From the NCBI RefSeq assembly GCF_032854445.1, contig NC_088301.1, positions 12,582,281 to 12,646,280 on the forward strand: a DNA stretch of 64,000 bases. The letters are read 5' to 3'. Origin of the DNA: Liolophura sinensis. Lineage: Eukaryota > Mollusca > Polyplacophora > Chitonida > Chitonidae. The notes under the pieces were generated by a model. That model made no database searches. It was not told where the DNA came from and saw only the letters and a list, made by a program, of their open reading frames with translations. This document shows, one piece after another, positions 41,301-44,300 of this stretch (position 1 is the stretch's first letter; each line of letters opens with the position of its first letter). Made by a program: the position numbers and the translations under genes.

Positions 41301-44300
41301 CTAGAACAGGTCCTGTCTTATAAATGGCGTATCTATCTGTGCCCGCGGCGTAATTTTGTGGAGTTTGACCTTCAGGCAAGGGGTCACCCAGCTCACGTGA
41401 CACCATGGCAGCGAACCTGGACATACGGGACGGCTGTCCACCGATGCAAACAAACTGAAACACAAATATCCAGCAATTTAAATGTTTCAGTATGTTTTTT
41501 TCTTCATTTAACGTTTTACTCTGTAAGGCAATGAATGGTTAAAAACAGAAACAATTGTTTGATTGAGTTTAAGGTCCTAAAGCCTTAAACATCCACAACT
41601 TTTGATTGTGGTTGACACTTCCTGGACAAGTTGATAAATACTCAGCTAGGCAAAATATGAATGCCTACGTGTTTGCGTGTATGGACTTACAGAAGGTCTG
41701 TAGGCGTTTTATTTTACTTTGCAATATACTGGGAGCTTGGATGGTTTAATGCCATAATCAAGAATTCGTCACTTTTGCGATGAATAGCAGCCTTATGGGA
41801 TCAACTGATCTATTACAACCGTACAATCCTCAATCTGCCTTGGCACCGAGTTGCCGCTGCGCCGGGAAGGTCGCCTCATTCCAGTTATTTGGCGTCTTTT
41901 TGAGCTCCTTGACGTATTAATAGTCTCCTGTTTGAATTGCCGCTAACAAATTGATATATAATAGTTTACCTTCGGGCTGCATGGAGTTAAAGTCGAAATG
42001 AAATGTCATCGTGTTGGACATTTGCACGTTGCATCCCAACATGCACTTCCAGATCCATATAAAAGACTAAACAGGCCCTACTGGATATTGATCAAAGATA
42101 TGGGAATAGTCAGATTTGTGAAATTCAATCGTGTGTACATTTTACGTCCGTGCACCACATTGCTGATGAACATTTGTAGGTCGCACAAAACCGTAACACT
42201 GATCGCTTTATAACATTTAACACAACTGTATTGTCATTTTAAAGCAGGAAATCTTACAGAGCGAACAGGGATATTTTCTAATTACGGATGTTTGGTCTTT
42301 TCCTGAAGAAGAGAAAATTCTACTTGACTAGCGCGTAAAATGTTCGATACAGTATAATAAAAAATAGAGAAAGACAAAACACTTCAAACACTTCACACTC
42401 CATTTGCTATTGAGTACTTATACGAAATATTTTATATTTCGATTTCTAAATCCTGAAAAGGGATATATTGAAAAAACCATCGTATTTTGTCGCTAGAAAA
42501 AGCACCTTATGTTGATGTATGTGAAATGGCGACTCGAACAACTTACCTTGACGTATCCAAACATGTAACACCACGGTCTCACTTAGAGAAACATCTTACC
42601 GTGGTATCTCCGAACATGTAACACCATTGTGTCACTCAGACAAACATCTTACCTTGACATCGCCGAACACGTAGCACAACTGTACCACTTAAACAATTAC
42701 CTTATCCTGACATCTCCAAACAAGTGACACCATTTTGTCAACGAGATAAACTCCTTACTTTCACATCTGCTGACAGGTAACGCCACCTTTAGTCATTCTA
42801 ATAGTCCCCTAATTTAACATCTCAAAACAGATGTATCCACGTTGTTTCTCGGACAGGTCCAAAGAGGCTTAGTAACCACGCTTAATCACGTTTATAGATT
42901 TGACATTGTCACGCAAAGTGGCGGCAAGTTAGAATTATTCGTTCATTTATCCACTCACTCGTTCTGAATAGCTGACACCACCCTATAGCTCTGCTACTCG
43001 TGATTAACATTGGCGACACCATTTTATTGCTCAGACGATCACATTACCTTTACATCTCCAAACAGGGAAGGCAAATCGTGTGTGTTCGTTGCTATGGCGA
43101 TGTGATATAGTATATCCGTCTCCATCTGAACAAGGTGTGGGTTTGGCAATGGCATGACGTCGCTGACAAGAAGAAAGAAGAAAAACATTCTTAACCTTAA
43201 TCAATACAACGCCAAAGATGGTCATAGTTCTATCAGTATATACATATTGGTCAGTGGCAGGATGGACACGCCAAATATCTTTATAATCACAATTATAAGC
43301 CTTACCGAGAAGCGGGGTTGTGGCCGTGGATTTTCGATCGCAAGTACTCAAGATACCTCGTGTTCTCAACTTTTGACAGAGATTTCTGGGAATGTCCCGC
43401 TCTCAGGGCTCACGTGGCTCACGACGGCGCCCGTAAAGCCTAGGTCGATAGGGAGAGCTTCTTGCCCACCAGTATATAGTGCACGGGCGGGTGTGACTGC
43501 TTTCGAGGGCAGTGAGAGCCAGATGGGCGGGACAGAGGTGGGAGCCGCTTACAGATGTCAGTGTCATTAAGGCTGACACGTTTTCTCTTGTTAAAAGGGC
43601 AGAATATATGAATGTTAAGGCATCCATATAATGAACTATTTTCCACCTCCTTCAATGCACACAAAAAGCATACTACAAAAAATACCATTGTCCCAAAATT
43701 AAGGTTACATAACCAACATTACAATGCTATATTCCTATATTATCTCTGCTTTTATCGCCGTCAAAATATTCCTGAGTATGGCGTGAAACTCCAACGAAAT
43801 AAAATAAATGTAGGTACTCTTACTGCCTAGTGACAAATTAGGGATGTATTTGTCTATCAATCGCAAGGATACACGTTATGGAAATTTATAGGATGGTTAA
43901 TTTTATTTTATTGCTTTTATTACTCGTAATGGCTTGGTGACCGATAGAACTTGAATGGGCGCTCGTCCGTAGGAGGGTCTGCACACAACCTGCGCATGGC
44001 CGAGGGCCTCAACGGGTTGTGTTTAGTTTCCTCCCGCCATAATACTGACCGCCGTCGTATAGGTGAAATATTCTTGATTACACGGCGTAAAACACCAATC
44101 AAACAAATAAACCGTACTTACGACAATTTTATACCTTTACTGATTTTACTAACATACATGTACATTTACATATACACCTACTTACATCAAACTGTTATAC
44201 ACCTACCTCGTTTACTTATACCACAGTGTTATACGCCTACCAGGTGTGCTTAAATCACATTGTTATACCCCTACCACGTGTACTTACATAAAACTGTTAC

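Follow-up and report, generated by a model that had tools for sequence, protein, structure and literature searches.

Intron 2 of the uridine phosphorylase (UPP) gene of the chiton Liolophura sinensis holds a row of tandem repeats in which sites resembling the gene's own exon 2 splice donor recur, raising the question of where these repeats came from and whether splicing takes any notice of them. The gene lies on the minus strand of the window, the whole stretch of 64 kb analysed here, and its exons 2-4 are found at 43162-40549. When joined, these exons match UPP proteins of solved structure (E 3e-47); the partial protein scores 24.1 bits against Pfam PF01048, slightly below the cut-off of 25.1. 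Exon 2 (43048..43162, ATG at 43155) is 115 nt long, with an acceptor at 43162 that is predicted from sequence only, and ends in CTG TTT GGA GAT GTA AAG, encoding LFGDVK. The true exon 2 donor is AAG/GTAATG (the slash marks the splice point), with +1 at 43047, T at +5 and G at +6. Intron 2 measures 1593 nt, and exon 3 begins at 41454. A scan of the 64-kb window against Rfam gave no match at gathering scores.

The array occupies 42830-42538 on the minus strand, beginning 217 nt into intron 2, and consists of five full repeats of 53-54 nt and one 27-nt partial. The first-pass annotation had described about six 54-bp units, each with a version of the donor; the repeats are real, but all full units measure 53 bp except u6, which has 54, one of the six copies is incomplete, and GT is kept at the homologous donor place in only four of them (u5, u3, u2 and u1). 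Copy u6 (42777..42830) is full length and the most diverged, with TT at the donor place. Copy u5 (42724..42776) carries the decoy donor AAA/GTAAGG, with +1 at 42758, and in u4 (42671..42723) the homologous donor is lost, reading AT, and a shifted decoy, AAG/GTAATT, has its +1 at 42700. The decoys of u3 (42618..42670) and u2 (42565..42617) are AAG/GTAAGA and ACG/GTAAGA, with +1 at 42652 and 42599, and the partial copy u1 (42538..42564) bears the top-scoring decoy, AAG/GTAAGT, with +1 at 42546. At donor position +5 all six array copies have G, whereas the true donor has T. Mean pairwise identity among the five full copies is 63%. TRF called a 53-bp array at 42537-42732; a direct repeat search stretched the array limit to between 42801 and 42845 and detected a related copy at 43016-43064, at the exon 2 junction.

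The authentic junction lies in the same intron as the array, is homologous to its units and stands 182 bp apart from it. An uninterrupted tandem array spanning 42541..43050, as had been proposed, was rejected, as the gap on the minus strand between junction and array (42831..43012) holds no detectable repeat copies: neither array HMM gave a match at 43012-42831, and 294/500 shuffles scored as high, by a yardstick that is unclean since both outer flanks scored positive in the same test (1/500 shuffles as high for 42537-42350 and 3/500 for 43250-43066). The array is therefore not contiguous with the junction today. Because the outer flanks score above most shuffles, decayed pieces of the repeat possibly lie beyond the array limits; a weak HMM match occurs at 42515-42484 (E 0.3). 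Within the 64-kb window, the gap sequence (42831-43012) has no other match.

An HMM built from u2-u6, with the junction copy (J; 43013..43065, minus strand) left out, scored J at 27.3 bits (E 2.7e-7 for 64 kb, both strands), whereas the top score among 60 simulated 64-kb Markov sequences was 12.5 bits. J was the best match outside the array both for this HMM and for an HMM of u2-u5, which found the junction at E 7.2e-7. The match takes in 18 nt of exon 2 and 35 nt of intron, bearing out the extent of homology first suggested, namely the exon end and about 35 nt of the intron. Direct comparison of the junction with the array points the same way: J and u3, the copy most similar to it, are 78% identical over 49 nt without a gap, and a 70-nt junction probe scored 28.5 against the intron, a value reached by 0/2000 dinucleotide shuffles and by 0/2945 real 70-mers from the window. 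Compared with the array consensus, J agrees at 17/18 positions on the exon side and 25/35 on the intron side. The homology between junction and array is genuine and goes beyond a coincidence of donor consensus.

On its exon side the six-copy array consensus reads CTG TTT GGA GAT GTC AAG, which encodes LFGDVK in phase with the donor and differs from the end of exon 2 at a single, synonymous position. A peptide common to other UPP enzymes must stem from the exon, so that the exon 2 junction is strongly supported by these sequences as the founder of the minisatellite, in agreement with the origin proposed in the first-pass annotation. The difference at +5 is most simply read as a loss of G from the true donor that followed the duplication; alternatively, the founder copy may have changed.

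We consider it probable that the array belongs to the 'mirages', minisatellites that arise from a splice junction, and that it is an inert by-product of minisatellite turnover now in decay. An early tandem duplication would have captured the last 18 nt of exon 2 together with the first 35 nt or so of intron 2. Since the upstream copy of the junction was intact, coding would have been unchanged and the duplication tolerated. Replication slippage or unequal exchange may then have multiplied the copies, which would have decayed afterwards. The spliceosome would stay with the first junction and ignore the decoys, probably because this junction offers the nearest donor and an exon of normal size (115 nt, compared with 404-616 nt).

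By a donor frequency matrix, the true exon 2 donor scores 7.98, and five of the 39 GT sites in the array score 8.4, 9.1, 11.1, 8.9 and 12.7, the next best reaching 5.9. These five sites are the homologous donors of u5, u3, u2 and u1 and the shifted site of u4. At the density found in the rest of the window, 0.23 sites scoring at least 8 would be expected in 294 bp, and five are seen. Pairing with U1 (the best duplex near each site, with the register not forced and a bulge in the duplex of the true donor) gave -7.6 for the true donor and -5.0, -6.6, -9.5, -8.2 and -10.6 for u5, u4, u3, u2 and u1, respectively. The earlier claim that several copies fit the donor consensus better than the real site stands on the matrix, for four of the six homologous sites and one shifted site, and by U1 pairing it stands for three of the five decoys and fails for two, which are weaker. 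The other UPP donors score 7.82 (exon 1, inferred), 7.0 (exon 3) and 11.2 (exon 4) by the matrix, and -8.3 (exon 3) and -11.7 (exon 4) by U1 pairing. Judged by sequence, the decoys are good candidate donors, and the true donor is not on every scale an outlier. The five array donors that exceed the true donor on the matrix count against inertness and leave complete inertness less sure.

These scores bear directly on a different and, in our judgement, unlikely explanation, in which donor choice is leaky: the weak true donor would lose some transcripts to the decoys, the resulting messages would meet a premature stop and probably decay, and UPP output would be lowered or tuned, possibly in a manner dependent on copy number. 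The bases at +5 and +6 of the true donor (T and G), set against G at +5 in all six array copies, agree with such leakage, as do the five higher-scoring decoys and the fact that every extension of exon 2 runs for two codons and then meets TGA (peptide MPLP...GDVKVM). Human genes provide precedents: in cell models, loss of the +5 G in the first repeat of F7 makes the exon be skipped and brings cryptic donors further downstream into use (PMC6627357), and a +5 change in MSTN intron 1 moves splicing to a cryptic site 108 bp downstream (PMC3045353). Against leakage, U1 pairing places only three of the five decoys above the true donor, and the donors of exon 3 and, as inferred, exon 1 score no higher than that of exon 2, exon 4 alone doing so, indicating that the strength of the exon 2 donor is unexceptional within UPP. 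Moreover, the decoys lie 289-501 nt downstream of the true donor, and their use would produce exons of 404-616 nt. Selection for decoy donors left no sign in column conservation: across the five full copies the donor columns show no excess, 17/46 nine-column windows being as conserved or more, a comparison with little power. Because of the stop after two codons and the oversized exon, decoy use is predicted to be costly and unlikely.

The same sites could instead be helpful, an idea to which we attach very little weight. In this case U1 snRNP bound downstream would aid a weak exon 2 or guard against early polyadenylation, and the +5 G of the true donor could then have been dispensed with. The presence of five strong donor-like sites in the early part of the transcript fits this proposal, and downstream U1 binding is described as promoting exon definition in PAH intron 11 (PMC5933811); however, the variants concerned in PAH are at +17 and +20, whereas the nearest decoy is 289 nt away. 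The decoy columns are not preferentially conserved, and GT has been lost in 2/6 copies, both of which speak against a retained function.

Searches of the genome speak for the mirage explanation. We searched the organism's own genome (609 Mb, 632 contigs) with a procedure that leaves out highly frequent words and evaluates just the top candidates. Within the limits of this search and in one assembly, the junction-plus-array sequence and the array each occur in one place, their own locus; a dispersed repeat family was accordingly rejected. The 129-residue UPP peptide as query returned six exon matches, of which three are this gene and three belong to one paralogue on contig C1, with exon identities of 46-60% to the peptide. 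At its exon 3 the paralogue has a junction minisatellite of its own: 13 copies of 32 bp, 94% alike and contiguous with the junction (L009:3533-3946, corresponding to C1:86961532-86961945). Copy 1 of this array is the true exon 3 end and donor (GTTCTAACAGCTAGC/GTAAGTATGGTGTTGGT). GT is present in 12/13 copies, the true one included; by the matrix the true donor scores 5.6, seven copies equal it, four score 7.2 and one lacks GT, and the 12 GT copies pair equally with U1 (-8.6). Extension of exon 3 would reach a stop inside the first added repeat. A UPP paralogue with its own junction minisatellite is new here, and this separate second case favours the mirage explanation.

Elsewhere in the paralogue, the exon 2 donor at C1:86962646 scores 6.2, and a donor-like site 48 nt further downstream, at 86962598, scores 9.1. 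The latter resembles a single copy, now decayed, of the paralogue's exon 2 junction; the match is weak, being equalled by 0/2000 shuffles against a 61-nt target chosen post hoc and by 124/2000 against the whole intron.

The paralogue also bears on the direction of copying. Homology between array and junction is directionless by itself, and the array could in principle have stood first in the intron, the end of exon 2 being overwritten or newly recruited from it. We find this highly improbable: FGDVK is retained in all four of the displayed alignments with solved UPPs (8 hits in all), and exons 2 and 3 of the paralogue appear, from sequence comparison, to meet at the same place as in the window gene, so that the exon should be older than the repeats. 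The idea that an unrelated minisatellite merely happens to look like a generic donor consensus can be dismissed, for although that consensus is short and donor-like units arise in sampled arrays about as often as expected, the match here covers 49-53 nt and reaches to either side of the splice point, past any donor consensus, and chance is refuted by the HMM and the shuffles.

To ask how often a minisatellite might be founded on a junction, we used a sample of 264 kb in total, comprising the window and 200 kb randomly drawn (20 of 80 stretches, two contigs). The sample contains 65 minisatellites with a period of at least 15, approximately one per 4 kb. A donor-like consensus unit (score of at least 8) occurs in 4/65 arrays (window 42537, window 44180, L019:7100-7257 and L023:4405-4974), compared with 4.56 expected from mononucleotide shuffles; there is no excess of donor-bearing minisatellites in the 264-kb sample, indicating no preference for donors as founders. 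Four open frames near the arrays of L019, L022 and L023 were compared with Pfam, and no convincing coding exon emerged. V-cyclin_C in a repetitive L022 frame (28.9 bits, above the cut-off of 27) was discounted as an artefact, the frame being made of a 20-aa unit that recurs. Among 12 arrays of the window that were compared, only the intron 2 array has an outside match to a splice junction, as judged by eye and with partial gene models.

The expected number of junction-spanning founders is about 0.011 per junction, or 0.0056 with only the 28 arrays of at least three copies, and chance seeding accordingly predicts that about 1% of junctions are affected. Two junction arrays in two genes exceed this rate, a point against the favoured explanation, yet the coincidence is not far-fetched because the first case was selected by a reader. 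It is conceivable, though we hold it doubtful, that junction-founded minisatellites occur at about 1% of junctions here, that splicing in many genes has to pass over rows of donors as strong as the real one or stronger, and that the UPP true donor, deprived of the +5 G which the repeats retained, shares transcripts with the decoys as a built-in, copy-number-tunable brake.

Other repeats of the window were also recorded. Upstream of the UPP exons, at 44180-44934, an array of 22 copies of 34 bp has GTAAGT-like minus-strand sites in many copies; no junction is evident for it. Downstream of UPP exon 4 lies a 72-bp minisatellite (39687-39937) with an outlying copy at 40384-40423; the stretch between these parts contains what resembles a tRNA-type SINE, which may have split the array. 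SINE-like tails in the window are reminiscent of molluscs. A perfect 24-bp tandem repeat at 24580-24664 has a near-palindromic unit (GTATGTTAACCATGTGAACATACT), and a 3-kb array of units of about 61 bp, with periods of 122 and 183 bp too, occupies 50089-53142. Two open frames at 28491-29463 resemble broken pieces of a DIRS-like retroelement.

The mirage reading places the UPP array in a kind of repeat already known, though little studied, to which splicing normally appears indifferent. In amphioxus, minisatellite-like tandem duplications of exon-intron boundaries were described in Adh3 and in the globins BflGb6 and BflGb9; many, not all, copies have AG/GT signals, the copies adjoin the authentic boundary, and the Adh3 data and globin RT-PCR suggest that splicing is left undisturbed (PMC3087553). 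Mirages in TnC and PGBD5 are mentioned too, with imperfect copies in PGBD5 as well (PMC3902484). The UPP units resemble amphioxus mirages in straddling a real exon-intron boundary and in carrying a splice signal in many, not all, copies. The UPP array differs in being more decayed (63% mean pairwise identity, compared with 81-100% in BflGb6), in lying 182 bp from its junction and in holding five donors that score above the real one. The paralogue exon 3 array, 94% alike and contiguous, resembles the amphioxus mirages closely. Tandem duplication with AG/GT sites has been proposed as a source of introns in amphioxus (PMC3087553) and in human segmental-duplication repeats (PMC2812944); the UPP copies likewise carry splice signals but are inside an existing intron, with no new intron evident. 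Among mollusc and annelid intron repeats, the available text on the abalone TSSK1-like minisatellite (PMC6905558) and that on the earthworm metallothionein repeats (PMC12783039) describe no splice-junction similarity. Neither a UPP case nor a mollusc mirage is named in the titles and abstract openings of the literature searched, most subscription journals being outside it. Our results suggest that minisatellite-rich genomes acquire such junction duplications by chance and with a frequency that can be predicted; splice-site predictors and annotators should expect them.

For human F7 intron 7, Borensztajn 2006 is said to be the source of the upstream-donor finding. This intron contains 37-bp repeats, the first of which includes the genuine donor, and donors further downstream normally go unused (PMC6627357). 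The UPP array resembles F7 in presenting a series of repeats homologous to the genuine donor region, and in the paralogue array the genuine donor is itself repeat 1, as in F7. The UPP repeats, in contrast, begin 217 nt into the intron, and their separation from the junction, unlike the F7 arrangement, counts against the mirage explanation. Within one intron, five array sites exceed the real donor on the matrix, making the locus a natural experiment in donor choice. The two UPP genes offer a pair of ready-made constructs, with a decayed array standing apart from its junction in one and a fresh array adjoining its junction in the other, on which to examine how the spliceosome settles on the first of many similar donors. 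The most interesting feature is that the genuine UPP donor naturally lacks G at +5, the position at which a change in the first repeat of F7 is described as pathogenic.
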